A stretch of 47,943 nt of DNA from Bacteroidota bacterium (GTDB lineage: Bacteria > Bacteroidota > Bacteroidia > Palsa-948). The notes beneath the pieces were generated by a model. It made no database searches. It was given only the letters and a program-made list of their open reading frames with translations, and was not told the origin of the DNA. The stretch lies in contig JACRAL010000179.1 of NCBI GenBank assembly GCA_016213435.1, forward strand, positions 1 to 47,943, written 5' to 3'. A program made the position numbers and the translations under genes. How positions within the stretch are numbered: the stretch's first letter is position 1; each line of letters starts with the position of its first letter. Shown in pieces: positions 16,659 through 36,083 of this stretch.

Positions 16659-16660
16659 TG

Positions 16661-17509
16661 TTAATTATTTATTTCTGCTATTCTGTTTTTACACCAATTA
16701 AGTAAAATAGGTCTTAAATCAATATCTTTAAATTCATATTGAAATGTTTGCTTGTATATTCTTGGTCTATCAATTATTAATCCTGCATCAGTAGAGATTT
16801 CGTGCAATTTTTCTTTATCAGAAATAACAACGGGAACAGAAAATCCTTTTATCGGTGATGCAGCAAAATGTATATATTTTTCCCACGCTCTCATATTCAA
16901 ATCCTTGATTTTTCCTTTCCAATTACTACCAGCAGCACACTGAATAAATAAAATAATCTGGCTTGCTCTATTATCTTCCCAATCTTTCCATGCTATTATA
17001 TCTAAATCCCTATCTTTTCTATAAGCAGGAGGCAAGTAATTAAATTTTTCTTTTAAAAAATTGTCAGCAATAGTTTGAATATTTTGTTCGGTTGGAAAAC
17101 CATAAATCAAGGAATTCCCCTTTATGTAATTTTTGATTGCTTCATTAGAAATTCGTTCAAAATACTTGCCCGCTTTTGCTGCTGATGTGGAAGAAGTATT
17201 AGGATTACCTTCCAAGGCATATATTAAGCAAGCTAAGTATTCGGGATACTGTTCCCAATCAATTAGGGAATTTATACTTAGGGGTTGAACTTCTATGGGG
17301 GGATTACTTCCATATAATTCCACCCTGCAAGCAAGAACATTCCAAACGCTGTCAATAAAACCGTCTTCTGGATCGCTGCCTTCGGATGCTTGTATATAAG
17401 AAGCTATTTGGGATTTTGAAATGCTATCCTTTAGATATGTTACATATAATTCAATCCAGTCCGCCACAACTTCAGATGAGGTTGCATCTGGGATATTGTA
17501 TCTAAGCAT
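16661..17509 (-). CDS. Probable PD-(D/E)XK restriction endonuclease partner of the methyltransferase
   Basis: I do not recognise this 282-residue protein as a named family. It has a plausible PD-(D/E)XK-type core: GKYFERISNEAIKNY with Glu118, then DLDIIAW with D168/D170, then ILFIQCAAGSNWKGK with Gln190 about 20 residues later and lysines at 198 and 200. The order (acidic helix, D strand, Q-x-x strand with a nearby lysine) is that of many restriction enzymes, though the usual lysine directly after the Q is an Ala. Its place between the ParB-like gene (3-bp gap) and the methyltransferase (2-bp gap) makes a restriction role likely; this is inference. Confidence 0.55.
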   Translation of the reverse strand: MLRYNIPDATSSEVVADWIELYVTYLKDSISKSQIASYIQASEGSDPEDGFIDSVWNVLACRVELYGSNPPIEVQPLSINSLIDWEQYPEYLACLIYALEGNPNTSSTSAAKAGKYFERISNEAIKNYIKGNSLIYGFPTEQNIQTIADNFLKEKFNYLPPAYRKDRDLDIIAWKDWEDNRASQIILFIQCAAGSNWKGKIKDLNMRAWEKYIHFAASPIKGFSVPVVISDKEKLHEISTDAGLIIDRPRIYKQTFQYEFKDIDLRPILLNWCKNRIAEINN

Positions 17510-17512
17510 AAG

Positions 17513-18667
17513 TTAATTTTCAATGATTTTATCAATAGTTTGAATGGTTTCCTTACATTTGTCAATTTCTGATTGAACACTTTCAGATTTTTTATGGCGA
17601 TGTATGAATTGTAATGATTTTTCAAGATTATCATTTGCTCTTTTCAAATAAGTTGTAAGCAAATTTTCTTCTCCGCCACTTCTATCATAAGCATCTAGTA
17701 ATTTTCCATTTGCTTTTAAATGCTCTAAAGCAATTGGACTTTTAATGATATGGGTCAGGTAATTTGTAATATCCCTACTTTCTTTTAATACTCTTGGTGT
17801 CCGAGTCCCTTCACCATAAAGCCAAGAAAAAAGTAACTTTAGATTTTCTGTTTTTTCTTTGGGAACGGGTTGATCGAAATTTACCTCAGACAAATTAGAC
17901 GGAATTCCTAAAAAATCTTTTATTGCACCTTGTCCGCTTGCAAGCAATAAATATGAAAACTCATTTCTTGCAAGAGAAGTATCTATACCAAATTCATTCT
18001 CCACTTGCTCAACTAATTTGTAACATAAATAAAATTTTCTTGCTGAGTTACTTCTATCTGCAACAATTTGTTGAATTTCCTTTAATGTTTTTCCTTCTTG
18101 AACCATATACGCTACATATCGTGCTTTTGCGTAAGGGTCCCATTTTTTTATTCCTGTAATATGCCTTACTCCTAAATATGGTAATACTTCTTTCCTATTT
18201 GGATACACAATTACAGGTAATTCGGAAATGTCTTTTATTACTTCCGATGAAATTTCAGGAAAAGTTTTAATTTTAAACTTTGTTTGTAATTCAAGGGACA
18301 AGAGGACTTTGATAGTAGCAAGTCGTCTGTTACCTTCCACTACCGTAAATTGAGTTTTAGGTTTACTAATAAAATCAATATACTCTTTGTTTTTTTTCAA
18401 CTTGTCCGCCCTTAAATTTTTAAATTTTTCCGGCAATCCCATTGGAATGGCTACTAATGGTTCTTCATCAAAATAACCATTCTCCCCTATTGAAAGAGCT
18501 AATTCATCAATATCAAAAAATTTATAGAGACAATAAATAATGTCCAGTTCATCTTTTTCTTGAGTTTCTGCTGGTAATCTGGGATTTAATGGGTCAAGAT
18601 GTAAGTTGTCTGGAACAATATTTAGTTGCGGTCTTTTTCTATCTAACCCTGCAATATTTTTAGACAT
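17513..18667 (-). CDS. ParB/Srx-fold protein of a restriction-like operon
   Basis: This 384-residue protein has an N-terminal ParB/sulfiredoxin-type domain: DPLNPRLP (25-32), ELALSIGENGYFDEEPLVA (55-73) and VVEGNRRLATIK (109-120), where the GNRR stretch is the nucleotide/phosphate-binding signature. The remaining ~250 residues are mostly helical and end in a charged coiled-coil-like tail. It is not a chromosome-partition ParB, since there is no ParA and no clear HTH/parS module. It is the first gene of the three-gene operon with the endonuclease-like and methyltransferase genes, so I infer a regulatory or DNA-engaging defence role. Confidence 0.7.
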   Translation of the reverse strand: MSKNIAGLDRKRPQLNIVPDNLHLDPLNPRLPAETQEKDELDIIYCLYKFFDIDELALSIGENGYFDEEPLVAIPMGLPEKFKNLRADKLKKNKEYIDFISKPKTQFTVVEGNRRLATIKVLLSLELQTKFKIKTFPEISSEVIKDISELPVIVYPNRKEVLPYLGVRHITGIKKWDPYAKARYVAYMVQEGKTLKEIQQIVADRSNSARKFYLCYKLVEQVENEFGIDTSLARNEFSYLLLASGQGAIKDFLGIPSNLSEVNFDQPVPKEKTENLKLLFSWLYGEGTRTPRVLKESRDITNYLTHIIKSPIALEHLKANGKLLDAYDRSGGEENLLTTYLKRANDNLEKSLQFIHRHKKSESVQSEIDKCKETIQTIDKIIEN

Positions 18668-18971: not shown

Positions 18972-19316
18972 TTAAATCTTTATTGAAAGAACTTTTGCCA
19001 GGCCAATTTTGATTTCATCAATTAATGATTCATTTAACTGTCCTATTCGCCTGATAAATCTTTTCTCAGAAACCGAACGAACCTGAAAACAGTCTGCCCC
19101 TGATTTTTTTGAAAGCCCATTGGTTGATGCAGGTTCAATGCTAACCATCCATGGAGCAATTTCATATCTGTCTTTCCAATCTGTTAATGGAACTATTATT
19201 TTTAAAGGCAACTTCCCGAGTGCGCTGTCATTAACTATAACCGCAGGTCTTTTCTTTTGAATCTCTGCTCCAACTGTAGGATCAAGATTGATTAACCAAA
19301 TTTCACCTTGCTTCAT
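18972..19316 (-). CDS. PemK/MazF-type toxin (endoribonuclease)
   Basis: This 114-residue protein begins MKQGEIWLINLDPTVGAEI and continues KKRPAVIVND, the standard MazF/PemK N-terminus with its catalytic-loop Arg. IIVPLTDW and the C-terminal VRSVSEKRFIRRIG strand also match. MazF toxins cut mRNA at short sequences. I start it at ATG 19316; an ATG six codons upstream would extend it into the antitoxin region without family support. It overlaps the end of the preceding antitoxin gene by 14 bp, the usual TA arrangement, and lies between the two direct repeats. Confidence 0.9.
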   Translation of the reverse strand: MKQGEIWLINLDPTVGAEIQKKRPAVIVNDSALGKLPLKIIVPLTDWKDRYEIAPWMVSIEPASTNGLSKKSGADCFQVRSVSEKRFIRRIGQLNESLIDEIKIGLAKVLSIKI

Positions 19317-19515
19317 AAAAACTTTCAAAATCAAGATTAGTGAATATAGTTAATTCCTTATCATTTTTATAGTCTGGATATAATACATTCGCTGCATACT
19401 TCAATTCATTGTTTTCTTCCTTCTCCCGTATGGTGTGAAGCGCTTTTTCAATTAAAAAAATACGTTTCTGAAAAGGGAGCCTTTCTATTTCTTTTAATAT
19501 TTCTATTGTTCTCAT
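19303..19515 (-). CDS. Cognate antitoxin of the PemK/MazF-type toxin
   Basis: This 70-residue acidic and helical protein starts MRTIEILKEIERLPFQKRIFLIEKAL, so the N-terminal part probably dimerises and the C-terminal acidic part (NDKELTIFTNLDFESFYEAR) would cap the toxin. It is not a MazE AbrB-fold protein; similar short helical partners accompany PemK toxins in Bacteroidota. It is assigned by position (first gene, overlapping the toxin start) and size rather than by a family motif. Confidence 0.75.
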   Translation of the reverse strand: MRTIEILKEIERLPFQKRIFLIEKALHTIREKEENNELKYAANVLYPDYKNDKELTIFTNLDFESFYEAR

Positions 19516-22096: not shown

Positions 22097-23224
22097 ATGA
22101 TTCCATTTAATAAACCTTTGGTCATAGGGAAAGAACAGGAATACCTCATGCAGGCGCTTGGCGGGCAGAAGTTTTCAGGCGACGGAGAATTTACTAAGCG
22201 ATGCAATGAGTGGATCGAAAAAAATACCGGGACAAAAAAAGCATTGCTTACCACATCGTGCACGCATGCCTTAGAAATGGCTGCAATCCTTTCAGGTATC
22301 CAGGAAGGCGACGAAGTAATCGCGCCCTCGTTCACCTTTGTTTCAACAGCCAACGCTTTTGTACTTCGGGGAGCAAAAATCATTTTTACAGACATCCGTC
22401 CCGATACGTTGAATATTAACGAAGAACTTATTGAAACAGCTATCACGAAAAAAACCAAAGCGATTGTTCCTGTACATTATGCCGGCGTTTCCTGTGAAAT
22501 GGATAAAATTCTGGAACTGGCTTCAAAGTATAATTTATTTGTTATCGAAGATGCGGCGCAGGGCATCATGTCGCACTACAAAGGCAAACCGCTCGGCACA
22601 ATAGGTCGCTTTGGTTGTTTTAGTTTTCACGAAACAAAAAATTATCACTGCGGAGAAGGCGGCGCCCTCCTTGTGAATGATGAGAAATATGCTGAGCGGG
22701 CAGAGATCATCAGGGAAAAAGGGACCAACCGGGCAAAATTCTTCAGGGGACAGGTTAATAAATATACATGGGTTGACCTTGGCTCAAGTTATCTGCCGGG
22801 CGAACTGAATGCTGCATTTTTATTTGCGCAATTAGAACGGGCAGAAAGCATCCACGAACGCAGGCTTGCAATCTGGCAAAAATATTTTCAGTTTTTATCT
22901 GTTCTGCAAAGTGAAGGATTATTTGAACTTCCCTTTATTCCCGTACATTGTTCGCACAATGCCCATATGTTTTATATCAAATTAAAAAATATTGAAGAAA
23001 GGCAGAAACTCATAACTCATTTAAAGCAATGCGGGATTCATACCGTATTTCACTACATACCCCTGCATTCATCGGAAGCCGGTTTAAAGTTCGGGCGTTT
23101 TCACGGAGAAGATAAATACACTACGAAAGAAAGCGAACGATTGTTGAGGTTACCGTTTTTTTATGATTTGACAGATACGGAAATTGAGTATGTTTGCGAT
23201 ACCATTAAAAAATTCTTTCATTGA
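22097..23224 (+). CDS. wecE: dTDP-4-amino-4,6-dideoxygalactose transaminase (WecE/RffA type)
   Basis: This 375-residue PLP aminotransferase of the DegT/DnrJ/EryC1/StrS family tracks E. coli WecE/RffA along its length: PSFTFVSTANAFVLRGAKI, VPVHYAGVSCEMD, DAAQGIMSHYKGKPLGTIG, SFHETKNY with the PLP lysine K181, and IREKGTNRAKFFRGQV. WecE converts dTDP-4-keto-6-deoxyglucose to dTDP-4-amino-4,6-dideoxygalactose (Fuc4N). It opens the polysaccharide locus right after a strong promoter. The dTDP-sugar precursor genes (rmlA/rmlB) are not in the window. The 3' end overlaps the next gene's TTG start. Confidence 0.92.
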   Translation: MIPFNKPLVIGKEQEYLMQALGGQKFSGDGEFTKRCNEWIEKNTGTKKALLTTSCTHALEMAAILSGIQEGDEVIAPSFTFVSTANAFVLRGAKIIFTDIRPDTLNINEELIETAITKKTKAIVPVHYAGVSCEMDKILELASKYNLFVIEDAAQGIMSHYKGKPLGTIGRFGCFSFHETKNYHCGEGGALLVNDEKYAERAEIIREKGTNRAKFFRGQVNKYTWVDLGSSYLPGELNAAFLFAQLERAESIHERRLAIWQKYFQFLSVLQSEGLFELPFIPVHCSHNAHMFYIKLKNIEERQKLITHLKQCGIHTVFHYIPLHSSEAGLKFGRFHGEDKYTTKESERLLRLPFFYDLTDTEIEYVCDTIKKFFH

Positions 23225-23865
23225 AATTTATCAGAAAAATATATCGGATCATTGAATTGTTATTGCATGCAGCGATAATATATTTATTCTTAAAACCCAG
23301 ATATTTAATTTTTGGCATTGAAACCGTTTCCCACTATTTACGGCTTTGCAAATCACTGCGCCTTACAAAACGTATTCTTATAGCTTTTGGCGCAAAAATC
23401 GGTAAACGGGATATCAGAATCGGGCCATATATTTATATGCATAATGCATTTTTTAAAAATGATTTTTCAAATCTGTGTATTGGCGAAGATGTTTATATCG
23501 GGCCTCATACGGTTCTTGATCTATATGGAGAAATTACAATCAAAAATCATGTGGCAATCGGGATGAACTCTCACATTTTTACTCATGCCAGTTTTGTCGG
23601 GACCTATAGTATGCTGATGAGAATCAAGGTTGCCAATGTGGTATTCGAAGAATATAGCGGAACAAATCCGTGTGTCACGGTTTTAGCGGGGGTAACGGTT
23701 GGAAGAAATTCATATATTACACCTCACAGCGTAGCTGTTGAAAACATCCCTCCTTATAAAATTGTAAGAGGAAATCCGGCACAAATTATAGCTAATCTTC
23801 CTGAAGAAAAAATGAAATCTTTTGAAACGAAATATTTAGAAAAAATAGGTTGGATAAAATCCTGA
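23221..23865 (+). CDS. Left-handed beta-helix (hexapeptide) acyltransferase
   Basis: This 214-residue protein has an amphipathic N-terminal part followed by hexapeptide repeats (KIGKRDIRIGPYIYM, LCIGEDVYIGPHTV, TIKNHVAIGMNSHIF, VTVLAGVTVGRNSYI) and the typical end IVRGNPAQII. Such enzymes transfer acetyl or other acyl groups to sugars or amino sugars. The start is TTG at 23221, overlapping the previous stop as TTGA; no ATG exists near the conserved N-terminus. Sitting between a Fuc4N transaminase and an acyl carrier protein, it may N-acylate the 4-amino group from acyl-ACP (inference). Confidence 0.8.
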   Translation: MKFIRKIYRIIELLLHAAIIYLFLKPRYLIFGIETVSHYLRLCKSLRLTKRILIAFGAKIGKRDIRIGPYIYMHNAFFKNDFSNLCIGEDVYIGPHTVLDLYGEITIKNHVAIGMNSHIFTHASFVGTYSMLMRIKVANVVFEEYSGTNPCVTVLAGVTVGRNSYITPHSVAVENIPPYKIVRGNPAQIIANLPEEKMKSFETKYLEKIGWIKS

Positions 23866-23868
23866 GAA

Positions 23869-24108
23869 ATGACACAAACAGAAAAATTAAAAAAAGCATT
23901 TGCTGAAGCATTGATTATTGATGAGGCGCTTGTTACAGACACGTTAAAATATCAGAGTATCCCTCAATGGGACTCCATAACACATATGGTTTTAGTCAGC
24001 AGTATTGAAGAAGCCTTTGAACTTTCTTTAGACACAGAAGAAATTATTGATTTAAGCAGTGTTGCCAAAGCAAAAGAAATATTATCAAAAAAAGGTATTA
24101 CTTTTTAA
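23869..24108 (+). CDS. Acyl carrier protein of the polysaccharide locus
   Basis: This 79-residue acidic four-helix protein carries the phosphopantetheine attachment serine S36 within WDSITHM. It differs from the fatty-acid AcpP (no DSLD), so it is a dedicated carrier. It lies 3 bp after the acyltransferase and 9 bp before the reductase, indicating joint expression. It would carry the acyl chain handled by the neighbouring reductase, ligase and LuxE/LuxC-like proteins. Confidence 0.85.
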   Translation: MTQTEKLKKAFAEALIIDEALVTDTLKYQSIPQWDSITHMVLVSSIEEAFELSLDTEEIIDLSSVAKAKEILSKKGITF

Positions 24109-24117
24109 ATTTTTATT

Positions 24118-24861
24118 ATGCTCCTTATAGATAAAACGGCTCTTATTACCGGCTCTGCAAAAGGCATTGGCAAAGCTACTGCAGAACTTTTCAGCAAACA
24201 TGGCGCTAAACTTATCCTGGTGGATCGCGACATGGAAAAACTCGAAAAAATACATGAAGAGTTTATCAAAAAAAATTATCCTGAACCAAAAATATTTCAT
24301 GCAGATGTAAAAAATTTTGAACAGATAAAATCAATTTTTAACGAACTGAATAACTCTAAAATTTTTATTGATATACTTGTAAATAATGCCGGAATAATGG
24401 CCGATTCAATGCTGCAAATGGTTCAGCAGCCACAGGTACAATCCGTGTACGAAGTCAATGTTTTTGGCACTATATATTTCTCGCAGTTTGCCATTAAGTC
24501 TATGATGAGGAAAAGAAAAGGGTCAATTATCAACATAAGTTCTATCATGGGAACAAAAGGCTATATCGGCCAGACAGTATACGGTTCCAGTAAAAGCGCA
24601 ATCATCGGATTCACTCAATCTCTCAGCAAGGAAATAGCTCCTTTGAATATCAGGGTAAATGCGGTAGCTCCTGGTTTTATAGAAACTGATCTTACTCTTA
24701 ACACTCCTCCTGCCGTTCTTGAAAAAACATTATCCTCCATCGGAATGAAACGTCCGGGTAAACCGATTGACGTGGCCAATACCATATTATTTCTGGCCTC
24801 CGACCTTTCGGAATATATTACCGGGCAGGTTATCGGAGTGGATGGAGGGATGATTATTTAA
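24118..24861 (+). CDS. FabG-like short-chain dehydrogenase/reductase
   Basis: This 247-residue Rossmann-fold reductase has the cofactor motif TGSAKGIGKA (11-20), VNNAGIM (88-94), a catalytic Ser near 142 (ISSIMG), Y155 and K159 (YGSSK), and the C-terminal GQVIGVDGGMII. The pattern is that of 3-oxoacyl-ACP reductase (NADPH-dependent) or a close relative. Next to a dedicated ACP, reduction of a 3-oxoacyl-ACP to a 3-hydroxyacyl-ACP is the simplest role. It is followed by a short AAATGT/AAATGG word tract and the DUF559 element. Confidence 0.85.
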   Translation: MLLIDKTALITGSAKGIGKATAELFSKHGAKLILVDRDMEKLEKIHEEFIKKNYPEPKIFHADVKNFEQIKSIFNELNNSKIFIDILVNNAGIMADSMLQMVQQPQVQSVYEVNVFGTIYFSQFAIKSMMRKRKGSIINISSIMGTKGYIGQTVYGSSKSAIIGFTQSLSKEIAPLNIRVNAVAPGFIETDLTLNTPPAVLEKTLSSIGMKRPGKPIDVANTILFLASDLSEYITGQVIGVDGGMII

Positions 24862-24862
24862 A

Positions 24863-24893
24863 ATGTAAAATGGAAAATGTGAAATGTAGGATA
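24863..24893 (+). repeat. Short AAATGTAAAATGG word tract after the reductase gene
   Basis: A drifting repeat of AAATGTA / AAATGGA / AAATGTGA units directly follows the stop codon, in the same style as the other intergenic word tracts of this window. Confidence 0.5.
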
Positions 24894-24909
24894 CAAAAAA
24901 ATCAATTCG

Positions 24910-24933
24910 TTTGCCCCTAACCCTGAAGGGAGC
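24910..24933 (+). repeat. Left inverted repeat flanking the DUF559 gene
   Basis: The 24-nt segment begins TTTGCCCCTAACCCTGAAGG. Its inverse complement recurs at 25356-25379 with 20 of 24 matching positions. Confidence 0.75.
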
Positions 24934-24974
24934 GACTTGATTTTTTAATATATTTCCTGATTATAGAAAAAAAT

Positions 24975-25331
24975 ATGTTTTATTCTGCTAAACCTGCAAT
25001 ATTCAGAAATGCAGAATCTCTAAGGAATAATATGACTAAAGCAGAATTGCTTTTGTGGGAAAGACTGAAACAAAATAAACTTAATGGATATAGATTCAAA
25101 GCGCAGCATCCTGTGAGTCAATTTATAGTTGATTTTTATTGCCACAAAGCAAAATTAGTAATTGAACTTGATGGACCAATACATGAATTGCCAGAAAAAA
25201 AAGAATATGATGCTGGCAGATCATACGAATTAAAACAGTTAGGTATAACAGAAGTCAGATTTATAAATGAACACGTTTTTAACGATATTGAAAACGTGTT
25301 ATCTAAAATAGCTAAATATTTGCCAAAGTAA
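24975..25331 (+). CDS. DUF559 protein with Vsr-like PD-(D/E)XK nuclease fold
   Basis: This 118-residue protein is of the DUF559 family, related to the very-short-patch-repair endonuclease fold. The conserved pattern is FRNAESLRNNMTKAELLLWE, then GYRFKAQHPVSQFIVDFYC and AKLVIELDGPIHE, giving the catalytic acidic set E24, D53 and E64/D66, all present. Its C-terminus IENVLSKIAKYL is typical. The biochemical role of the family is unclear; many copies occur in Bacteroidota genomes between unrelated genes. Confidence 0.85.
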   Translation: MFYSAKPAIFRNAESLRNNMTKAELLLWERLKQNKLNGYRFKAQHPVSQFIVDFYCHKAKLVIELDGPIHELPEKKEYDAGRSYELKQLGITEVRFINEHVFNDIENVLSKIAKYLPK

Positions 25332-25355
25332 TACAGATACGAATTGATTTTCAAC

Positions 25356-25379
25356 ACTCCCTTTAGGGCTTGGGGCAAA
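25356..25379 (-). repeat. Right inverted repeat flanking the DUF559 gene
   Basis: Read on the minus strand it begins TTTGCCCCAAGCCCTAAAGG, an inverse of 24910-24933 with four differences (TAA/AAG, G/A and the last base). Confidence 0.75.
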
Positions 25380-25464
25380 TGTTGAAAATCAATAAAGTTT
25401 ATTACCTATACGTTTTTTACAGAACCAAATATTTTGAATGATATAAAATTTCATTGAATGTAGG

Positions 25465-26850
25465 ATGCGAAAAATAACCGACTTAATAGTACAGAACAAA
25501 AACCTGGTGTATTATGATATCAACCGGGATAAAACGTTGAAGATCGAAGAGTTTAAGTTTCATGAAGTTTTTTTTTCGTCTCAGGAAAAAAGGCTTGTTT
25601 TTCATTACCCTGATAATTCGTTAGATTCTGTTGAGACATTCTGGGCGCTGATGAAAAGCCCTCATGCAATCGCAATGCTCAGCCCGCAATTAAACCCGGA
25701 ATTTAAAATACAATTAGAGGAATTATACAAACCATATTATATATGGGATCCCGTAAGGAGCGACATTCCCGGGTACAGTAAAAAAACGCTGGATTCAAAA
25801 TATATTTTCGAGATCAATAAAGCTGAAAACCGCTCCATTCATCCGGAACTGAAAATATTGCTCAGTACATCCGGAACCACCGGTTCTCCGAAATTTGTAA
25901 AACTGTCTGAATCAAATCTTGTGGAAAATGCGCTTTCTATATGCGATTACCTGCCCATTGTTTCTGAAGATTGCACTCCTTTGAACCTGCCTATGTATTA
26001 CTCATATGGACTATCGCTTCTTACCACTAATTCCATCAATGGCGGAAAAATAATTTGTTCGGTAAAAGATATTCTTAATCGTGAATTCTGGAACGAATTC
26101 GAAAAACTGAAATTTACTTCATTAGCAGGAGTTCCTTATCTTTACGAGGTTTTGAACCGGATCGGTTTTACAAAAAAACAATATCCTTCGTTGCGTTACC
26201 TTACTCAGGCAGGAGGTAAACTCAATACTAGCCTGGTAGAAATCTTTGAAAAATATGGTTCCGAAAATAATGTTAAATTTTATGTGATGTATGGAGCCAC
26301 AGAAGCCACAGCACGCATGTCGTATATGCCGGCTGACCATTTAAAACAGAAATTAGGATCCATAGGCATGGCCATTAAAAACGGAAAGTTTATCATAGAC
26401 ACTGAAACCGGCGAGCTCATTTACAGCGGGCCCAATGTGTTCGGCGGATATGCAGTAGCCCCGGATGACCTGGTTGTGTTTGAAAAAATCGGCCAACTGC
26501 ACACCGGCGATATTGCACAAATGGACAGCGACGGTTTTTATTACATCACCGGCAGGCTGAAGCGTTTTGTAAAACTGTTCGGCCAGCGGGTAAACTTAGA
26601 CGAAGTTGAAACACGACTGAAAACGGCATTCGGAGGAAAAACTTTTGTATGCGTAGGCATTAATGACAAATATATTGCAGTTACCGTGAATGAAAAAGCG
26701 GTTTCAAAAGAAGAAGTTGAAACGTATATTCATCAGAATCTCGACATTCATCCGAATTTTATCATGTTTCATTACCTTGAAAAAATACCCCTGACGCAAA
26801 ACGGGAAAGTGGATTATACTGTAATCATAGCAATGTATGCAACTGAGTGA
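25465..26850 (+). CDS. AMP-forming acyl-CoA/acyl-ACP ligase
   Basis: This 461-residue adenylating enzyme of the ANL superfamily has core motif LSTSGTTGSPKF (133-144), YGATEATARM (A5), LHTGDIAQMD plus FYYITGRLKRFVKLFGQRV (A7-A8), and PLTQNGKVDY with the catalytic A10 lysine. It would activate a carboxylic acid as an acyl-adenylate and load it on CoA or on the ACP encoded upstream. It is shorter than acyl-CoA synthetases (about 550), closer to adenylation domains. Its end overlaps the luxE-like start by 14 bp. Confidence 0.88.
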   Translation: MRKITDLIVQNKNLVYYDINRDKTLKIEEFKFHEVFFSSQEKRLVFHYPDNSLDSVETFWALMKSPHAIAMLSPQLNPEFKIQLEELYKPYYIWDPVRSDIPGYSKKTLDSKYIFEINKAENRSIHPELKILLSTSGTTGSPKFVKLSESNLVENALSICDYLPIVSEDCTPLNLPMYYSYGLSLLTTNSINGGKIICSVKDILNREFWNEFEKLKFTSLAGVPYLYEVLNRIGFTKKQYPSLRYLTQAGGKLNTSLVEIFEKYGSENNVKFYVMYGATEATARMSYMPADHLKQKLGSIGMAIKNGKFIIDTETGELIYSGPNVFGGYAVAPDDLVVFEKIGQLHTGDIAQMDSDGFYYITGRLKRFVKLFGQRVNLDEVETRLKTAFGGKTFVCVGINDKYIAVTVNEKAVSKEEVETYIHQNLDIHPNFIMFHYLEKIPLTQNGKVDYTVIIAMYATE

Positions 26851-27907
26851 ATACATAAATATCGAACAATATTCTTTACCCGGGAAATTAAAAAATCAAT
26901 ATTTTCTTGATTTGATGGTTCAACTGCACCATCATCATTACGCGCATTCAGCCGAATACAAGAAGATATCCGATGTAATATTTCCTTCATCAGAAAAAAT
27001 TCAATCCATCGAAAACATTCCGTTTGTTCCTGTGAGCCTGTTCAAAAACCATTCATTGAAAAGCATTGCCGACGATAAAGTGTACAAGGTTCTTACATCA
27101 AGCGGAACCACAGGCAGCACGCCTTCGCTCATATATCTCGATGCCGGGGCCTCCCGGCTGCAGACGCTTGCCTTATCAAAAATCATAACGCATATTCTAA
27201 GCAAAGAACGGTTACCGATGCTTATCGTAGATTCAAAATCCGTGATCAGCGACCGGCAATCGTTTTCGGCAAGAGGCGCCGGAATATTAGGTTTATCCGT
27301 ATTTGGTAAAAATCATTTTTACCTGCTCGACGATACATTTGAAATAGATTACAAGGGGCTTGCTGATTTTTTATCAAAATACAATGGTCAGCGAATGCTG
27401 ATTTTCGGATTCACATTCATGGTATGGCAATACCTGTTCTTATCGGATATGAGAGAAAAGATTGATCTGTCGAAATCTGTCCTGATACACAGCGGAGGCT
27501 GGAAAAAATTACAGGAAATTGCAGTTGACAATACTGTTTTTAAAAAATCGCTGAATGAAAAATCCGGCATAAAAGAGATTTACAATTTCTATGGCATGAT
27601 TGAACAGATAGGGTCTGTGTTCCTGGAAAACAGCGACGGGTATTTACACTGCCCTAATTTTTCGGATATCATCATCCGCAATCCCAAAAATTTTTCTGTT
27701 CAGAAAAACGGCGAAGCCGGGCTGATACAGGCGTTGAGCGTTCTTCCCCAAAGTTATCCCGGTCATTCCATCTTAACCGAAGACATCGGCGTGTGCATGG
27801 GCGAAGATGATGCATCGAACGGCTGGAAGGGTAAATATTTCAAAATCTTAGGCAGGGCAAAAAAAGCCGAACTCAGGGGATGCAGCGATACATTTGTAAA
27901 AAAATAA
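26837..27907 (+). CDS. LuxE-like acyl-protein synthetase
   Basis: This 356-residue protein matches the acyl-protein synthetase family (LuxE): IPFVPVSLFKNHSL near the N-terminus, the adenylate-binding SSGTTGSTPS (88-97), MLIFGFTFMVWQYL, LIHSGGWKKL and YGMIEQIGSVF. In luminous bacteria LuxE activates a fatty acid with ATP and passes the acyl group to its own cysteine and then to LuxC, which reduces it to an aldehyde. The gene overlaps the ligase gene and is 10 bp from the luxC-like gene. No luciferase (luxAB) is present, so it serves another purpose. Confidence 0.85.
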   Translation: MQLSEYINIEQYSLPGKLKNQYFLDLMVQLHHHHYAHSAEYKKISDVIFPSSEKIQSIENIPFVPVSLFKNHSLKSIADDKVYKVLTSSGTTGSTPSLIYLDAGASRLQTLALSKIITHILSKERLPMLIVDSKSVISDRQSFSARGAGILGLSVFGKNHFYLLDDTFEIDYKGLADFLSKYNGQRMLIFGFTFMVWQYLFLSDMREKIDLSKSVLIHSGGWKKLQEIAVDNTVFKKSLNEKSGIKEIYNFYGMIEQIGSVFLENSDGYLHCPNFSDIIIRNPKNFSVQKNGEAGLIQALSVLPQSYPGHSILTEDIGVCMGEDDASNGWKGKYFKILGRAKKAELRGCSDTFVKK

Positions 27908-27917
27908 TTCTGAAATT

Positions 27918-29147
27918 ATGACGGTTCAGCAAATATCACCCGAAAATAATACGGTTCCCGTAGAAGCGCTGCAACTATTCTCTGATGCGAAATTTCCGCT
28001 CCGGCCCTTTGATGATTTAACCATTGATTTTTTTAATACGCTCTCAAAACAAATCCTGTCCGATAAAGAAATCAACAGGGTACCGGCCATAGCGGCATTA
28101 GGATTCTGGCTTCGAAAAGCGAATTTTCGGAATATTTACAAACAGAACCGGCATCTTTTTGAAAGCGCTGATTACAGGATTTCTCCGTTAGGCATTGTGT
28201 TTCATGTGTGTCCGTCGAATGTGGATACCATGTTTCTCTACAGCCTTTCCATATCATTAGCCGCAGGCAATAAAAATATCGTGAGGATTTCTGAAAGGTT
28301 GAATCATCCGCACATCAGTTATATTATTACTTTGCTCAATAAGACCATAGCACAGAAAGAATACCTGCTATTTCAAAATTATATTTGTATTTTGAAATAC
28401 GGCCATGATGATGATATCAACCGGTATTTCTCGGAAAGAGCAGATGCCAGGATTTTGTGGGGCGGCGATGCCACGATACATTATTTTAAAAATATCCCGG
28501 TTCAACCCAGGATAAAAGACATTGCTTTTGCCGACAGGATTTCAATTTCGCTGATCAAAAGCGACGAATTTAACAGGATGGCCGAAGCGGAGAAAAAAGA
28601 ACTTGTGCGAAAATTTTTTAATGATTCATACACCTTTGATCAAAAAGGCTGCTCATCGCCGCAGGTTATTTTTATATATGGAAATTCCGGCGACAACGCG
28701 ATTTTTGAAAAAGAATTTTATTCTTTGCTCAATGCGTTTTCATCCCTGAATTATGACAATGACATTTCCTCTTTATCCTCGCTTAAATTCAATCAAATGG
28801 CCGATGATGCAATAGATGGAACAGTATCCGGTTTTATCAATCAAACAAACGATACGGTTTTTGCTGATTCTGAAAACCTGAAAAACCTGAAGCATAGTTG
28901 CGGCGGCGGATATTTTTACACCAAGCAAATTACACAACTTAATGAATTAATACCCTTCATCAATAAAAAAACGCAAACCTTAAGTTACTTCGGTCTCGGT
29001 AAAAATGAAATAAACGAAATAATAACCAGCGCTGCAGGTATAGGAATAGACCGGATTGTTCCGATAGGGAAAGCGCTTGAGTTTAATTATATCTGGGACG
29101 GTTTTAACCTGTTAGATGAACTTTCAGGGAAAATTTATTTCCAGTAA
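27918..29147 (+). CDS. LuxC-like acyl-CoA/acyl-protein reductase
   Basis: This 409-residue aldehyde-dehydrogenase-fold reductase belongs to the LuxC family. Visible features are PLGIVFHVCPSNVDTMF (90-106), AGNKNIVRIS, WGGDAT, and QKGCSSPQVIF with the acyl-accepting cysteine C245. LuxC takes the acyl group from LuxE or acyl-CoA and reduces it with NADPH to a fatty aldehyde. Its neighbours make this a LuxE-LuxC pair inside a polysaccharide locus. The product might be an aldehyde for reductive coupling or an alcohol after further reduction. Confidence 0.88.
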   Translation: MTVQQISPENNTVPVEALQLFSDAKFPLRPFDDLTIDFFNTLSKQILSDKEINRVPAIAALGFWLRKANFRNIYKQNRHLFESADYRISPLGIVFHVCPSNVDTMFLYSLSISLAAGNKNIVRISERLNHPHISYIITLLNKTIAQKEYLLFQNYICILKYGHDDDINRYFSERADARILWGGDATIHYFKNIPVQPRIKDIAFADRISISLIKSDEFNRMAEAEKKELVRKFFNDSYTFDQKGCSSPQVIFIYGNSGDNAIFEKEFYSLLNAFSSLNYDNDISSLSSLKFNQMADDAIDGTVSGFINQTNDTVFADSENLKNLKHSCGGGYFYTKQITQLNELIPFINKKTQTLSYFGLGKNEINEIITSAAGIGIDRIVPIGKALEFNYIWDGFNLLDELSGKIYFQ

Positions 29148-29265: not shown

Positions 29266-29565
29266 ATGGATTTAATAGATAAAAATATTACTATAATTCA
29301 AAACCTTTGTAAACGATATAAAGTGTTACGCTTGTTTGCTTTTGGTTCGGTTTTAACTGATAAATTCAGGCAAGACAGCGATGTGGATTTATTAGTAGAA
29401 TTCGATACTATTGATTTAAAAGATTATGCGGACAATTATTTTGATTTTAAATTTTCTTTACGGGATTTATTAAAAAAAGAAATTGACTTATTGGAAAATA
29501 AGGGATTAAAAAATCCATTTTTGAAGCAATCTATTGATTCAACAAAAAAAATGATTTATGGATAA
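29266..29565 (+). CDS. mntA: MntA-type nucleotidyltransferase antitoxin
   Basis: This 99-residue minimal nucleotidyltransferase has FGSVLTDKFRQDSDVDLLVE, with GS at 27-28 and the metal-binding D39/D41. MntA adds AMP residues to the HepT toxin and so disables it. It overlaps hepT by 8 bp, the standard arrangement. It interrupts the polysaccharide locus between luxC-like and tylF-like genes and has its own promoter box, so it looks like an inserted addiction module. Confidence 0.9.
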   Translation: MDLIDKNITIIQNLCKRYKVLRLFAFGSVLTDKFRQDSDVDLLVEFDTIDLKDYADNYFDFKFSLRDLLKKEIDLLENKGLKNPFLKQSIDSTKKMIYG

Positions 29566-29893
29566 TGAAATAAAGACATGGCTCTATGACATGTTGCAAT
29601 CAACAATAGAAATCGAAAGTTACTTTGAAAATAAGGAAAAAAGATATGATGACTTTATAAAAGATCGTAAACTAAAAAGAGCCGTCGAGAGAAATATTGA
29701 AATAATAGGAGAAGCCATTAATAGAATATTAAAAAAGGATTCAAATTTTAACATTACGAATGCCCGTAAAATTGTAGATACCAGAAACAGAATTATTCAT
29801 GGATACGATACTGTAACGGATGACTTTCTCTGGAGTATCATAATAAATCACATCCCTCAGTTAAGAGTTGAATTGGAAGAATTTTTCAAATAG
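29558..29893 (+). CDS. hepT: HepT-type toxin (HEPN RNase)
   Basis: This 111-residue all-helical HEPN protein has the catalytic pattern R76-N-x3-H81 with Y83 (DTRNRIIHGYD), matching the RX4HXY motif whose tyrosine is AMPylated by MntA. Active HepT cleaves RNA; the paired nucleotidyltransferase upstream neutralises it. The catalytic residues are intact, so the module may be functional. Confidence 0.9.
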   Translation: MDNEIKTWLYDMLQSTIEIESYFENKEKRYDDFIKDRKLKRAVERNIEIIGEAINRILKKDSNFNITNARKIVDTRNRIIHGYDTVTDDFLWSIIINHIPQLRVELEEFFK

Positions 29894-29928: not shown

Positions 29929-30732
29929 ATGAATATTTTAAAAAAAATCATATTGAACTACCTTAAATCAAGAGATCTCGAGATATACAAGAAAACTCTG
30001 AAATTAAAAGAAATTGAAACTTTTGAAAAAGAAGCAGAAAAATATTTCCAGATAGTAAAATCAAACACCATGCTTAGCAATGCCCGCCTGCTCTCGCTCT
30101 GGGAGCAGGTGCTGTATTGCGAAAAGAACAACATTCCCGGCGCATTTGTTGAGTGTGGCACATGGAAGGGCGGTGCTATGGGGCTTATGGCGCTGGCCAA
30201 TATAAAATTCAGTAACCGGAAACGCCACCTGCATTTATTTGATGCATTCACAGAAATATGCGAACCGGATCCGGCTGTTGACGGAGAGCGCGCCATTAAC
30301 GAAGTAAGACCTTTTGTAAAAGACAAAGAATTAAAAGGCGAGTTACTGCCTGTCAAGGGGGTTTACGATTGGAAAGGCGGGCCGGGTACGCTGGAAGAAA
30401 ACCGCGATTTGCTTGAGAATAAAATAAAATACGATAAAAATTACCTGCACTACCACAAAGGATGGTTCCAGGAAACCCTGCCGCTTGTTTCAGACAAAAT
30501 AGGAGATATTGCCATCCTGCGGCTCGACGGCGATTTCTATGCCTCTACAAAAATATGCCTTGAATATCTTTACAGTAGCGTGGTTCACGGAGGCCTTGTG
30601 ATTATTGACGATTACGGCACCTACGAAGGCTGCAAGAAAGCAGTTGACGACTTTATTGAACAGAAAAAAATAAAAGCATTACTAGCCCATATTGACAGCG
30701 ATGCCTGCTTCTTTGTGAAAACAGAAAAGTAA
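29929..30732 (+). CDS. TylF/MycF-type sugar O-methyltransferase
   Basis: This 267-residue S-adenosylmethionine-dependent methyltransferase is of the macrocin O-methyltransferase family. It has GAFVECGTWKGGAMGLMAL (SAM site), HLHLFDAFTEI, LRLDGDFYASTKICLEYL and GGLVIIDDYGTYEGCKKAV with the metal-binding aspartates. TylF-family enzymes methylate hydroxyls of deoxysugars in antibiotics and surface glycans. In this locus a sugar of the polysaccharide is the likely substrate. It converges with the next methyltransferase with a 7-bp gap. Confidence 0.88.
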   Translation: MNILKKIILNYLKSRDLEIYKKTLKLKEIETFEKEAEKYFQIVKSNTMLSNARLLSLWEQVLYCEKNNIPGAFVECGTWKGGAMGLMALANIKFSNRKRHLHLFDAFTEICEPDPAVDGERAINEVRPFVKDKELKGELLPVKGVYDWKGGPGTLEENRDLLENKIKYDKNYLHYHKGWFQETLPLVSDKIGDIAILRLDGDFYASTKICLEYLYSSVVHGGLVIIDDYGTYEGCKKAVDDFIEQKKIKALLAHIDSDACFFVKTEK

Positions 30733-32683: not shown

Positions 32684-34117
32684 ATGACGTTAAAGCAACA
32701 AACAATAAGCGGGATCAAATGGACAAGCATTTCTGCGATTGTCCTTGCAGCTATATTATTCCTGCAGCAGGTTTTGCTGGCGCATTTTTTTCTTACCAAA
32801 GACGAGTTCGGCGCCATGGCGATCCTGCTTGTAATAATAGGATTTGCCAATATTTTCATTGATATGGGCGTGAGCAACGCTATTATTTACAAACAGGATA
32901 TTACAAACTCACAACTGTCGGGCCTTTACTGGCTTAATATATTTTCCGGTTTTATTTTCTTCATTATAATATCTTCCATAAGCCCGCTCATTGTAATGTT
33001 TTACAGCAAAGTTCAGATTCACGCTCATTATATTATCATCATCAGCCTGTCGTTTGTAATCACTTCCGTATCGCGGCAATTCAGAATTTTACTGCAAAAA
33101 AACCTGTTGTTTAAAAATATTTCAATTATAGAAATCACAGCGGCAGCTATAAGTTTTGCATTTTGCATGTATCTTGCCTATATCGGGAAAGGCATATATT
33201 CTCTTATTTTCAGTACGGTTTTAAACAGCCTGATCCAGGCAATCATGCTTTTTATTATCGGTATAAAAATTCACAAACCAAAATTCACCTACCATCACAA
33301 AGAGTTAAAAGAATTTTTTGGTTTCGGACGGTTCCAGATGGGAGGAAATATCATTAATTATTTTTTTACACAAATTGATACCTTGCTGATCGGAAAATTC
33401 CTTGGTGGAGATGTTCTGGGATTATATACAATCGCAAAAACCCTGGTGATGGCGCCCATACAGCTCATCAACCCGATCATCACAAAGGTTACCTTCCCGG
33501 TAATGTCGAAAATGCAGGACAATGCCCTGGCATTGAAAAATATTTACCTTAAAACTTTAAATTATTTGTCGTCCATAAATTTCCCGATCTATACCATGCT
33601 GCTTATCCTGGCACAACCTGTAATTATTATTGTTTATGGTCCCAAATGGGTAGATGCAACCTATATATTGCAGGTCTTATCGGTTACTTTTCTTATCCGT
33701 TCCACAGGCAACCCGGTAGGCGCCTTATTATATGCCAAAGGCCGTGCAGATTTGGTTTTTTACTGGGTTCTCTCGCTGATTTTCGTGATCCCTGTTGGAA
33801 TTTTTATCGGCTCGCTATGGGGTATCAACGAAGTGTGTTATGCACTCCTTATTTTACAAATAGTGCTGCATTATCCCAGCTATCATTTCCTGATAAAAAA
33901 GATCATACCGGTTAGCTTTCTTGATTATAACCTGAATCTGGCAAAACCCTTACTATTTTCTGTAATTGCAGGGTGTTTATCATTTTTTTGGGTTTTCATA
34001 GTTACGGATAATTATCTCAAAATTGCTTTCGTGCTTGCAACAGGCGGGTTCATTTACGCGTGCATGAATTACTTCTTCAATAAGAATATTATAAAAGCGC
34101 TTAAGGAATTTAAATAA
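32684..34117 (+). CDS. Wzx-type polysaccharide/lipid flippase (MOP superfamily)
   Basis: This 477-residue polytopic protein has about 12-14 predicted membrane helices and the N-terminal pattern of polysaccharide exporters (GIKWTSISAIVLAAILFLQQV, LAHFFLTKDEFGAMAIL, DMGVSNAIIYKQ), plus FFTQIDTLLIGKFLGGDVLG and the LPS-family ITKVTFPVMSKMQ. It would flip lipid-linked sugar units across the inner membrane. No polymerase (Wzy) is recognisable in the window, so the locus is incomplete here or extends elsewhere. Confidence 0.88.
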   Translation: MTLKQQTISGIKWTSISAIVLAAILFLQQVLLAHFFLTKDEFGAMAILLVIIGFANIFIDMGVSNAIIYKQDITNSQLSGLYWLNIFSGFIFFIIISSISPLIVMFYSKVQIHAHYIIIISLSFVITSVSRQFRILLQKNLLFKNISIIEITAAAISFAFCMYLAYIGKGIYSLIFSTVLNSLIQAIMLFIIGIKIHKPKFTYHHKELKEFFGFGRFQMGGNIINYFFTQIDTLLIGKFLGGDVLGLYTIAKTLVMAPIQLINPIITKVTFPVMSKMQDNALALKNIYLKTLNYLSSINFPIYTMLLILAQPVIIIVYGPKWVDATYILQVLSVTFLIRSTGNPVGALLYAKGRADLVFYWVLSLIFVIPVGIFIGSLWGINEVCYALLILQIVLHYPSYHFLIKKIIPVSFLDYNLNLAKPLLFSVIAGCLSFFWVFIVTDNYLKIAFVLATGGFIYACMNYFFNKNIIKALKEFK

Positions 34118-34122
34118 TAAGA

Positions 34123-35004
34123 TTATTTGTAGGCTTTTTTACTGTAGATCGTAATATTCTTCTCAGCTAATTTTCCCATCTCATAGTATAGTTCGCGCGC
34201 TTTGGCAAAAAAATAAGGCACACCATTTATGTTTATATCTTTGGCAATATGTTCCGGTATGTGCTTTTTGAAAAATACAGGTACGCTCCTGTGTTTTATT
34301 CTCGGATGTGCTGCAAAAGTTTCAACAATAATAATTTCTTTTGATGGAAACTGAACCCTGGCATTGAAAATATCCGGCAATAATGTTTCAACCGGAAATT
34401 TATATTCTTTGCTGTCTTCGATGCAATGAACAAATGTGCAGTAATGAGAGTTTACTCCAATGCCTATCACCAGGGCATCCCGTTCCATCAATTTGTAATA
34501 TGGGCTTAATTTTCCGCAGGGATATTTATCTTTATGCTGATTCTCTATATAAGCTACAGCATTTTTCCCGATAGCAACCACCGGATAGGTAGGATGCCAG
34601 CTTCTGACAGCATCTTTTTCTCTCCGGGCCAGTTCAGGAAGTAATCCAAAAACAGAGTGCGATGTTTGAACATTGAAAACAGAATTTTTATTTTTCAAAT
34701 AGTCTTCTGCCCTTCCGGAAAAATGAGTTGAAGGGAAAAGAATAGTGGCATCCTCGCCAACAATCTCGCGAATGACAGGAATAATTCTGGCAACCGAAAA
34801 TTCAGTTTTTAACAAAGTTATGGAACTATGTATAAAAACATCCCTGCCTTTTTTTAATCCAAGCCGGTTGATTAAAATATCTTTAAATTCAGTTTCAGAA
34901 ATCGCCGGAATTCTTTTTCGTACCATGGAATAATAGTAAAGCCTCATTTTTTCGAGCAGGGAATGAGGTATAAACATTTTTAAAAAGAAATAGATTTTCT
35001 TCAT
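34123..35004 (-). CDS. AAC(3)-fold N-acyltransferase of the polysaccharide locus
   Basis: This 293-residue protein belongs to the family used for aminoglycoside 3-N-acetyltransferases: VFIHSSITLLKT, ATILFPSTHFSG, SHSVFGLLPELARR, RSWHPTYPVVAIGKNA and HCIEDSKEYKFP. The same fold acetylates amino sugars, and here it overlaps a deacetylase gene by 4 bp and lies next to sugar-modifying genes. I therefore read it as a glycan N-acyltransferase, not a drug-resistance gene. The order within the minus-strand pair is deacetylase then acyltransferase. Confidence 0.75.
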   Translation of the reverse strand: MKKIYFFLKMFIPHSLLEKMRLYYYSMVRKRIPAISETEFKDILINRLGLKKGRDVFIHSSITLLKTEFSVARIIPVIREIVGEDATILFPSTHFSGRAEDYLKNKNSVFNVQTSHSVFGLLPELARREKDAVRSWHPTYPVVAIGKNAVAYIENQHKDKYPCGKLSPYYKLMERDALVIGIGVNSHYCTFVHCIEDSKEYKFPVETLLPDIFNARVQFPSKEIIIVETFAAHPRIKHRSVPVFFKKHIPEHIAKDININGVPYFFAKARELYYEMGKLAEKNITIYSKKAYK

Positions 35005-36083
35005 GGCTGTTTATCTTCAAAAAAATGTTTATACATGGCCTGATAGGTTGTGAAAGTAATTTTGTCTTTGTAATACAGTCTCGCTTTTTCAATAAATTCC
35101 TTCATGATGAGAAATCCGTAACGGCCCATATTTTTGGGATGCGACAAGGTGCTTAAAACGATTTCCTCCCTGCCGCCAGGCAAGGCCTCCCGGTTTTGGT
35201 ATTTTCCGATATTGTATTTCAGAATATCCATAAGGTTGTCTGAAGAGAGCGTGTACACATCAAATCCTAACAAACGGTTGGAAAAAACAAATCGCAATTT
35301 ATCAACCGGGCTCATTTTCCCTTCATGGATGGCGCTTCCGGCAGAGTACCTGCGACTCTTAAACTGTTTTTTTCTGATAACATGATTGAGATTTGTGATG
35401 AGCCCTGCAGGTTTTCCCGCAATAGTGATTTCCATCATACCCTGATCTGTAATTTTATCTACCGGGCCGTCGGGAGAAAAATACCAATGCGACAGATCCG
35501 GCATTGATGAATAATCTACGCTGACGAAACGGGTCTTATAATAGAAACCGGGATTAATACTGCTTTCGATCCGGATTCCGTATTTATATAATGCATTCAG
35601 TATAGCCCGCGTTTCGGGAGCTAAGTTAAAACCGCCGGCACGATATGCAATACACTTATAATTATTATCCGAAGGTTTGCAAATAGTGTTCAGGAAATCA
35701 ATCCCTTTACTCACAATATCATCAATCCGCCCGACAGCATGATTATCTTTATAATCAGCTAATGAAAATTTACCGGAATGTACAAAAACACCGTTCTCAT
35801 AATCCGTTTCAAGCCAGTGAGGATGCAAGTGAAGCTGCACATCATGCTTTTCATGAAGCGCCCGTTCCAGTTGATGAATATATGGAATATAATAATCCTC
35901 ATGCCCCAACTCTTTCATTCGGATTGCTGAAAGAACATCCGTGAAAATATTGACAGGAACATTTAATTGCTTTGCCAGATCAAGCAGAGTATCCGTAGGT
36001 TTAAAAATGGCATCTTCAAAAGTTTTGCTGATACCGCCCAATGGCAATTCATGATCAAAAGCAAGCAACAGATTTATCTTCAT
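35001..36083 (-). CDS. Polysaccharide deacetylase-like (NodB-fold) protein
   Basis: This 360-residue protein has the NodB-type metal site: the N-terminal AFDHELPLGG with an acidic/His pair, VQLHLHPHWLE giving the H-x-H-x-H ligands, and YRAGGFNLAPETRAIL with the Arg. The C-terminal part is longer than a minimal deacetylase. It would remove N- or O-acetyl groups from a glycan or its precursor. Its stop overlaps the start of the AAC(3)-like gene, so deacylation then re-acylation of an amino sugar is an attractive inference. Confidence 0.78.
   Translation of the reverse strand: MKINLLLAFDHELPLGGISKTFEDAIFKPTDTLLDLAKQLNVPVNIFTDVLSAIRMKELGHEDYYIPYIHQLERALHEKHDVQLHLHPHWLETDYENGVFVHSGKFSLADYKDNHAVGRIDDIVSKGIDFLNTICKPSDNNYKCIAYRAGGFNLAPETRAILNALYKYGIRIESSINPGFYYKTRFVSVDYSSMPDLSHWYFSPDGPVDKITDQGMMEITIAGKPAGLITNLNHVIRKKQFKSRRYSAGSAIHEGKMSPVDKLRFVFSNRLLGFDVYTLSSDNLMDILKYNIGKYQNREALPGGREEIVLSTLSHPKNMGRYGFLIMKEFIEKARLYYKDKITFTTYQAMYKHFFEDKQP

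Follow-up and report, generated by a model that had tools for sequence, protein, structure and literature searches.

LuxE and LuxC without luciferase: a conserved gene cassette beside 4-amino sugar genes in a Bacteroidota bacterium, with a candidate role in glycan N-acylation

What might LuxE and LuxC, two proteins named after bacterial light production, be doing beside the genes of a surface sugar? The question is raised by a stretch of 47,943 nucleotides from a Bacteroidota bacterium (GCA_016213435.1, contig JACRAL010000179.1, forward strand), here called the window, in which seven genes lie on the same strand at 22097-29147: a WecE-type transaminase, a hexapeptide acyltransferase, an acyl carrier protein (ACP), a short-chain dehydrogenase/reductase (SDR), an AMP-forming acid ligase, and LuxE-like and LuxC-like proteins (Table 1). 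An earlier note on this DNA had drawn attention to them, and its account of the seven genes, their place and direction, and the residues that it quoted was confirmed throughout; S36 of the ACP, Y155/K159 of the SDR and C245 of LuxC are present, and LuxE also keeps C349. The note had left out an open reading frame (ORF) of the DUF559 family and a MntA/HepT-like gene pair. Apart from the DUF559 site, neighbouring genes of the block are separated by -4, 3, 9, -14 and 10 bases, and the order ACP-SDR-ligase-LuxE-LuxC, which we refer to as the cassette, is found in the window with the DUF559 ORF inserted after the SDR. The reading that we consider probable is that of a surface-glycan N-acylation cassette, in which a small hydroxyacyl group would be put on a 4-amino sugar by way of LuxE, LuxC, SDR, ligase, ACP and acyltransferase.

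In luminous bacteria, the catalytic cysteines of LuxE and LuxC carry the acyl group. The window proteins belong to the same families, PF04443 and PF05893, as judged from Pfam gathering scores and the cysteines C349 and C245, and are homologous to the bioluminescence proteins of PDB entry 7xc6 over most of their length: C349 aligns with the Cys of KGCSL in 7xc6_E (residue 364 if one counts backwards from position 366, where the alignment ends), and C245, invariant in a six-row alignment, with a Cys of 7xc6_A. They score, however, far below the cut-offs of the luminous NCBIfam equivalogs (NF052244, NF052251), with 76.1 bits against 550 for LuxE and 38.4 against 750 for LuxC, and, in agreement with the earlier note, the genome as assembled (97% complete) has no match to the luciferase family PF00296. 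Luminescence was rejected on these grounds. The same genome has a second LuxC-family protein on another contig (C196, 78460-78945; locus L010), with no profile match to LuxE, ligase, ACP or SDR in the 18 kb around it.

A search for the same ordered set in other genomes, which the note had suggested as a check, came out positive: the set recurs, linked to glycan genes, in few Bacteroidota and more widely in other phyla. A scan of named genomes yielded 570 LuxE relatives, of which we retained the best 80, a choice biased towards close relatives and Amycolatopsis. Among these 80, the ligase was present in all, a LuxC adjoining LuxE in 77, the ACP in 74, and the SDR, like the full set of five, in 64; 44 have the exact order with no other labelled gene between. 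A transaminase was found in 54, and 44 gave a match to any of the first four acyltransferase profiles. Gene labels beyond the Pfam-checked examples come from our own profiles, each grown from one seed, and the labels PseI, PseF and GNAT denote family, not proven function. After other loci had been added, we counted, within 9 kb of LuxE in 101 loci, LuxC in 101, ligase in 100, ACP in 94 and SDR in 83. All five genes occur in Bacteroidota, Acidobacteriota, Actinomycetota, Bacillota, Pseudomonadota, Ignavibacteriota and Deinococcota, as well as in a melainabacterium and a GN15 candidate, and the bearers include Amycolatopsis, Lysinibacillus, Deinococcus and Shewanella, with Taibaiella chishuiensis (L015) as an environmental one; two Spirochaetota loci gave no SDR profile match.

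Within the phylum, LuxE was found at E<=1e-20 in 6 of 395 genomes including the bacterium's own, three of the others being clade members at 48-66% identity, all with the order ACP-SDR-ligase-LuxE-LuxC, and two lying at 27%. LuxC was matched in 4 of 100 genomes searched as relatives (own included) and in none of six congeners. One gammaproteobacterial order has LuxE in 34 of 295 genomes, and a LuxE-LuxC stretch of Kosakonia found no match among the E. coli genomes searched. LuxC relatives also occur in 13 of 72,556 plasmid records; four of these were fetched, and in each of the three annotated ones a stretch of about 10 kb takes in ACP, SDR, ligase and LuxE, with the window's gene order only in Deinococcus. 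A LuxE tree, built by a quick method and showing long branches at L134 and L013, requires four changes of the label Bacteroidota. Starred branches force all four, an indication of repeated transfer. The window LuxE falls in a starred group of six Bacteroidota rows, which makes contamination unlikely, and the G+C content of the seven genes (0.32-0.42) is similar to that measured in their surroundings (0.37-0.46). Two gammaproteobacterial genomes carry a LuxC of about 810 residues adjoining a distant LuxE (L137, 8150-10582; L138, 2131-4548), in L137 with an AMP-binding domain fused behind LuxC according to Pfam; this is another reductase lineage.

The company of the cassette points to amino sugars. 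We examined 99 loci, the duplicates L017 and L087 having been dropped before, and left out 22 truncated ones. In the remaining 77, an N-acyltransferase was found in 67, a DegT transaminase in 61, both in 56, and some glycan-type label in 75, with no such label found in L038 and L044. Removal of most Amycolatopsis left 62 loci, for which the corresponding numbers are 52, 46, 41 and 60. In 18 control stretches (20 contig starts of Bacteroidota and gammaproteobacterial genomes fetched, two dropped as shorter than 14 kb), they are 2, 0, 0 and 2; these controls were not matched polysaccharide loci, and they show linkage to glycan genes, not one glycan locus against another. The cassette occurs in two settings, either with a transaminase and a hexapeptide transferase, as in the window, Amycolatopsis and others, or in a pseudaminic-type cluster with a GNAT, as in Bacillota and Gammaproteobacteria; among the 33 loci fetched from one gammaproteobacterial order, 23 have a PseH-like GNAT immediately upstream of the ACP. 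The sugars of both settings are acylated on the 4-amino group, so that a common role of the cassette would be the supply of the acyl donor. The note's view of the seven genes as one glycan pathway is supported.

To what extent do these genes travel together? We compared distances between loci after removing 15 of 18 Amycolatopsis together with L017 and L134, each gene on its own set of loci. The correlation with LuxE distances is highest for LuxC (r 0.85, 81 loci), followed by the ligase (0.76, 82 loci), the ACP (0.67, 76 loci) and the transaminase (0.65, 45 loci), and lower for the SDR (0.44, 64 loci) and the hexapeptide transferase (0.18, only 15 loci), so that the SDR and the acyltransferase look exchangeable. 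Before thinning, r among the cassette genes was 0.80-0.96 in 72 loci. For pairs with less than 60% LuxE identity, the values are 0.57 for LuxC, 0.49 for the ligase, 0.38 for the ACP, 0.26 for the SDR and 0.25 for the transaminase. LuxE and LuxC are fused in L134 (825 residues, also by Pfam) and L136 (773 residues), and ligase and LuxE in L135 (877 residues). From this co-variation, which is clearest among the distant pairs, and these fusions, ligase, LuxE and LuxC look like one unit.

The set is not the undescribed one for which the earlier note had taken it. According to the excerpts from which the papers here and below are cited, the polar flagellin glycosylation islands of Aeromonas group II carry orf1-orf2-orf3-luxE-luxC, encoding ACP, 3-oxoacyl-ACP reductase, AMP-dependent synthetase, LuxE and LuxC (PMC7874193), that is, the same five genes in the same order as the window; their cassette, however, lies between pseudaminic acid genes and flagellin glycosyltransferases, whereas WecE and a hexapeptide acyltransferase accompany it in the window, which gives no PseI, PseF or GNAT profile match. 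The same gene families (Acp, LuxE, LuxC, CaiC, FabG) occur in flagellin islands of Enterobacteriaceae, again in a flagellar setting, where the authors suggest a liposugar component (PMC4875605). All seven functions are found in the flagellin locus of Dickeya zeae (PMC7575072), which differs from the window in an added split transketolase and second FabG, and in being the flagellar locus of a gammaproteobacterium. The cassette is real, widely shared and already described, and is met here in a Bacteroidota setting without pseudaminic-type profile matches.

How could such a set make an N-acyl group? Gene content, conserved cysteines, cassette conservation, amino-sugar linkage and co-variation are shown by the analysis, while the chemistry of the pathway that we propose is inferred throughout, as is the acid itself. 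LuxE would adenylate a small di- or hydroxy-acid at one of its carboxyls and pass the acyl group via its C-terminal Cys to LuxC, which would reduce it to an aldehyde. The SDR would reduce the aldehyde to an alcohol, either before or after loading. By its other carboxyl the acid would be attached to the dedicated ACP through the AMP-ligase; from there, the acyltransferase of the hexapeptide (or AAC(3)-like) type would move the hydroxyacyl group to the 4-amino group of dTDP-Fuc4N from WecE, and Wzx would export the glycan unit. RmlB, encoded on another contig of the genome (477 bits, over the cut-off), could supply the WecE substrate. The presence of two ATP-using acid activators in a single short pathway finds its best explanation if the acid has two ends, of which one is reduced and the other becomes the amide. 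The acyl group is most likely a C3-C4 hydroxyacyl, the leading candidates being 2,4-dihydroxybutanoyl (3-deoxytetronoyl, from malate) and 4-hydroxybutanoyl (from succinate).

A product of this kind is known from Vibrio cholerae O1, where a 4-amino-6-deoxy sugar is N-acylated with a short hydroxyacid, the product being a 3-deoxy-L-glycero-tetronoyl amide. Its tetronate biosynthesis (VC0248-VC0252) includes RfbN, a protein with a LuxE domain (PMC4772473), and deletion of wbeL removes the O-antigen (PMC3441752). The LuxE domain is a shared feature, and the acylated amino sugar would be another; the sugar itself would differ, being perosamine in V. cholerae and, by our proposal, Fuc4N in the window. 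As a stand-in for the V. cholerae locus, whose genes were not fetched, we took L134, which has an ACP, a ligase, an iron-containing alcohol dehydrogenase (Fe-ADH) and the 825-residue LuxE-LuxC fusion. We take the tetronate genes of V. cholerae O1 to have this same make-up, presumably with an acyltransferase and with malate as precursor. The known product, together with the resemblance of L134 to the tetronate genes, was counted in favour of a small hydroxyacid. In the window there is no match to the Fe-ADH profile made from L134, where this gene stands between ligase and LuxE/LuxC, and LuxE follows the ligase directly; LuxE and LuxC are separate ORFs, unlike in the fusion, and an SDR is present instead of the Fe-ADH. 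Throughout the literature covered, which lay mostly outside subscription journals, a short hydroxyacyl product of a LuxE/LuxC cassette was found only for V. cholerae O1, and acyl terms are absent from the Geobacillus flagellin-island paper (PMC5109656); a search for structural work on the LuxC/LuxE pockets gave nothing of use. By its title, as cited in PMC8074265 and PMC8707391, a study of Idiomarina abyssalis concerns a 4-hydroxybutanoyl group.

Published masses from Aeromonas piscicola AH-3 offer a further point of comparison. In this strain the five cassette genes lie downstream of pseH, and the flagellin glycan is reported to contain a pseudaminic acid (Pse) derivative of 376.14 Da, hexoses, N-acetylhexosamines and an unassigned 102-Da moiety, the 376-Da sugar alone being retained in a glycosyltransferase mutant (PMC7874193). 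We calculated a mass of 316.127 for Pse5Ac7Ac, which becomes 376.148 when one acetyl is replaced by dihydroxybutanoyl, a group that by itself adds 102.032. Of 2976 combinations, 16 fall within 0.015 of 376.14; all have one formula, with acyl groups of at most five carbons (some with O-methyl or O-acetyl) and none with C8-C16 chains. Among the groups listed, only dihydroxybutanoyl and O-methylglyceroyl add 102. The cassette of AH-3 and the two fits, 376.148 and 102.032, were counted in favour of dihydroxybutanoyl, and a short hydroxyacyl cap is the best-supported reading of the product.

Several points weigh against this pathway. FabG enzymes usually reduce 3-oxoacyl-ACP, not aldehydes, and the SDR of the window is FabG-like; it follows LuxE loosely (r 0.44), and 18 of 101 loci, truncated ones among them, gave no SDR within 9 kb. 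Over all pairs, the ACP (0.67) and the transaminase (0.65) come close to the ligase in how well they track LuxE. The V. cholerae O1 pathway, too, has mostly been proposed from homology, and the fusion in L134 is only a distant relative, scoring 281 bits against the LuxE profile, compared to 476-549 for clade members, and sitting on a very long branch. The fit to 376.14 is not unique, since two hydroxypropanoyl groups or O-methylglyceroyl also account for it, and, having been made on published data after the mechanism was proposed, it is a fit and not a proof. Among Aeromonas flagellins with a single sugar, finally, that of AH-1 carries 403 Da, which the dihydroxybutanoyl idea does not explain, and that of A. 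caviae Sch3N carries Pse5Ac7Ac, the excerpts on these strains being silent on whether either has the cassette.

Could the same genes build their acyl group in a different way? In the viosamine island of Pseudomonas syringae, a transaminase, an acyltransferase, an ACP, a FabG-like reductase and a methyltransferase lead to a 3-hydroxybutanoyl amide, and for Flavobacterium psychrophilum a 3,5-dihydroxyhexanoyl group is the predicted product of wfp genes that encode two ketosynthases in addition to an ACP, a FabG-like reductase and an acyltransferase (facts on these two and on Aeromonas AH-1 and Sch3N are drawn from among PMC3927599, PMC6519341, PMC4691044, PMC3958885 and PMC7874193). By analogy, the ligase would load a beta-keto acid on the ACP, the SDR would form a 3-hydroxyacyl-ACP and the acyltransferase would hand it to the sugar, while LuxE and LuxC would make some other product or only supply the acid. 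The likeness lies in an ACP, a FabG-like reductase and an acyltransferase that put a hydroxyacyl group on a 4-amino sugar, and the window SDR is over the cut-off of a FabG subfamily. Both systems differ, however, in relying on ketosynthases for the acyl chain, and their excerpted descriptions mention no ligase-LuxE-LuxC. The window gives no ketosynthase profile match, none to KAS III (the enzyme type of VioS in the viosamine island) included, and KAS III was found in only 3 of the 77 untruncated loci. The co-variation of ligase, LuxE and LuxC and their fusion in pairs make a LuxE/LuxC side branch unlikely, and in AH-3 the exchange of one acetyl for 3-hydroxybutanoyl would bring the sugar to 360.15 Da, not 376.14. 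We regard such a route as unlikely, although it deserves more weight than the two readings that remain. One of these, proposed by the earlier note and close to the liposugar of the Aeromonas (PMC7874193) and enterobacterial (PMC4875605) authors, assumes a lipid-bearing sugar in the glycan, its decoration being the fatty aldehyde or alcohol obtained by reduction of a fatty acid. The family names of LuxE and LuxC invite it, but the scores far under the luminous equivalogs do not, and Pse with one of the fatty acyl groups tried would weigh 400-512 Da against the 376.14 observed in a cassette-bearing strain, whose masses fit short hydroxyacyls and none of these; we consider it improbable. That LuxE/LuxC and the ACP/ligase block are accidental neighbours of the glycan genes would agree with their patchy spread, with three clade genomes besides the own among 395 and no LuxC in six congeners. 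The order kept in 44 of the best 80 relatives, the ligase in 100 of 101 loci and the glycan-type labels in the vicinity of 75 of the 77 untruncated loci, compared to 2 of the 18 controls, contradict this, and chance neighbourhood, the least credible of the alternatives, was rejected.

Nearly all loci with a split transketolase or a NeuB-like gene close by belong to one LuxE clade of 27 rows. A transketolase pair or a NeuB-like gene lies within 9 kb of LuxE in 18 of these 27 rows, compared to 1 of 58 outside (L030), often just upstream of the ligase, and the 17 rows that have exactly one of the two require at least six changes between them. In L033, the NeuB-like protein scores under the NeuB and PseI cut-offs, and the thiamine pyrophosphate (TPP) enzyme under those of acetolactate synthase. 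Transketolases and NeuB-like enzymes both take aldehydes as acceptors, in keeping with LuxC as the maker of an aldehyde. One could speculate, tentatively and with less confidence than for N-acylation as such, that ligase-LuxE-LuxC forms a module of general use, spread by horizontal movement, which turns a carboxylate into an aldehyde for the building of glycan side chains. In the window and Aeromonas form, the aldehyde would only be reduced to an alcohol; in the 27-row clade, it would be lengthened by two carbons, either by the split transketolase or by a NeuB-like phosphoenolpyruvate aldolase with an acetolactate-synthase-like TPP enzyme, the two replacing each other. If so, the 102-Da and 376-Da moieties of Aeromonas flagellin would carry dihydroxybutanoyl made by the module. 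The window itself has no transketolase, NeuB-like or TPP-enzyme profile match. In L023, L033 and L038, a run of KAS III, ACP, FabZ, TPP enzyme, NeuB-like, metallo-beta-lactamase and ligase genes precedes LuxE-LuxC (with two FabZ in L038), which suggests a longer chain-building pathway.

Table 1 Features of the cassette and of its surroundings in the window
Feature	Position	Strand	Evidence
WecE-type dTDP-4-amino-4,6-dideoxyhexose transaminase	22097-23224	+	TIGR02379, 642.8 bits (over the curated cut-off of 434.85)
Hexapeptide N-acyltransferase, TTG start	23221-23865	+	PF00132, 29.3 bits (cut-off 27); NCBIfam WcaF-like, below cut-off
Dedicated ACP, 79 aa, phosphopantetheine serine S36 in DSI	23869-24108	+	Weak NCBIfam ACP matches
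FabG-like SDR, Y155/K159	24118-24861	+	PF13561; PRK12826.1-2 subfamily, 227.6 bits (cut-off 222)
DUF559 endonuclease-like ORF, between SDR and ligase, flanks of 113 and 133 bases	24975-25331	+	PF04480, 113.9 bits
AMP-forming acid ligase	25465-26850	+	PF00501
LuxE-like acyl-protein synthetase, C349 near C-terminus	26837-27907	+	PF04443, 167.3 bits
LuxC-like acyl-thioester reductase, C245	27918-29147	+	PF05893, 98.6 bits
TylF-type O-methyltransferase, possible tailoring enzyme	29929-30732	+	PF05711, 152.3 bits
Wzx-type flippase	32684-34117	+	PF13440, 254 bits
AAC(3)-family N-acyltransferase, alternative acyl-transfer enzyme	34123-35004	-	PF02522, 103.7 bits
CE4/NodB-fold deacetylase-like protein, paired with the AAC(3)-like gene	35001-36083	-	AlphaFold model, mean pLDDT 80.2
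GT4 glycosyltransferase	36198-37361	+	PF00534, 84.7 bits

Some members of the locus deserve separate comment. The ACP is judged to be divergent, because it has no Pfam match at E<=0.001 and its NCBIfam score of 25.6 bits lies under the cut-off of 66. A DUF559 profile match was obtained in 1 of 86 loci, namely the window itself, and three more related copies are present in the genome (contigs C154, C167 and C174); we read this ORF as an insertion outside the pathway. Directly after LuxC, at 29266-29893, follows the MntA/HepT-like nucleotidyltransferase-HEPN pair, both members of which are under the NCBIfam cut-offs. The G+C content of the DUF559 ORF (0.30) and of this pair (0.28) is under that of the surroundings, and given these low values both might be later insertions. 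The description of the region as a polysaccharide locus in the earlier note is supported, though on a thin basis: single genes for a Wzx, a GT4, an AAC(3)-like acyltransferase and a CE4-fold deacetylase-like protein, along with two for methyltransferases, lie within about 8 kb downstream, and no polymerase was identified, no search having been aimed at one. The CE4-fold protein lacks a Pfam match, its best Foldseek matches being polysaccharide deacetylases (E 5.6e-8), and is 49% identical to a copy beside the cassette of genome G057, where the AAC(3)-like and CE4-fold pair sits directly within the cassette (locus L008, 4614-6571). It is possible that the pair deacetylates and then reacylates. 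Elsewhere in the window lie a protein carrying GFPCQ, a motif of cytosine methyltransferases, with two further ORFs in the same direction (15291-18667), a gene for a toxin of the PemK/MazF type (PF02452) preceded by a small ORF (18972-19515), and a protein of 1574 residues in which PKD-like and SprB repeats are combined with a type IX secretion signal of the CHU_C kind (38274-42998).

So far, a cassette present in at least seven phyla has taken its name from light production and its interpretation from lipid chemistry. If the short hydroxyacyl caps are real, they would explain which genes vary the N-acyl groups on surface amino sugars, which serve as antigens and phage receptors, would link the tetronate of cholera O1 to flagellin glycosylation, and would turn the unexplained 102-Da moiety in the published data into a direct test.

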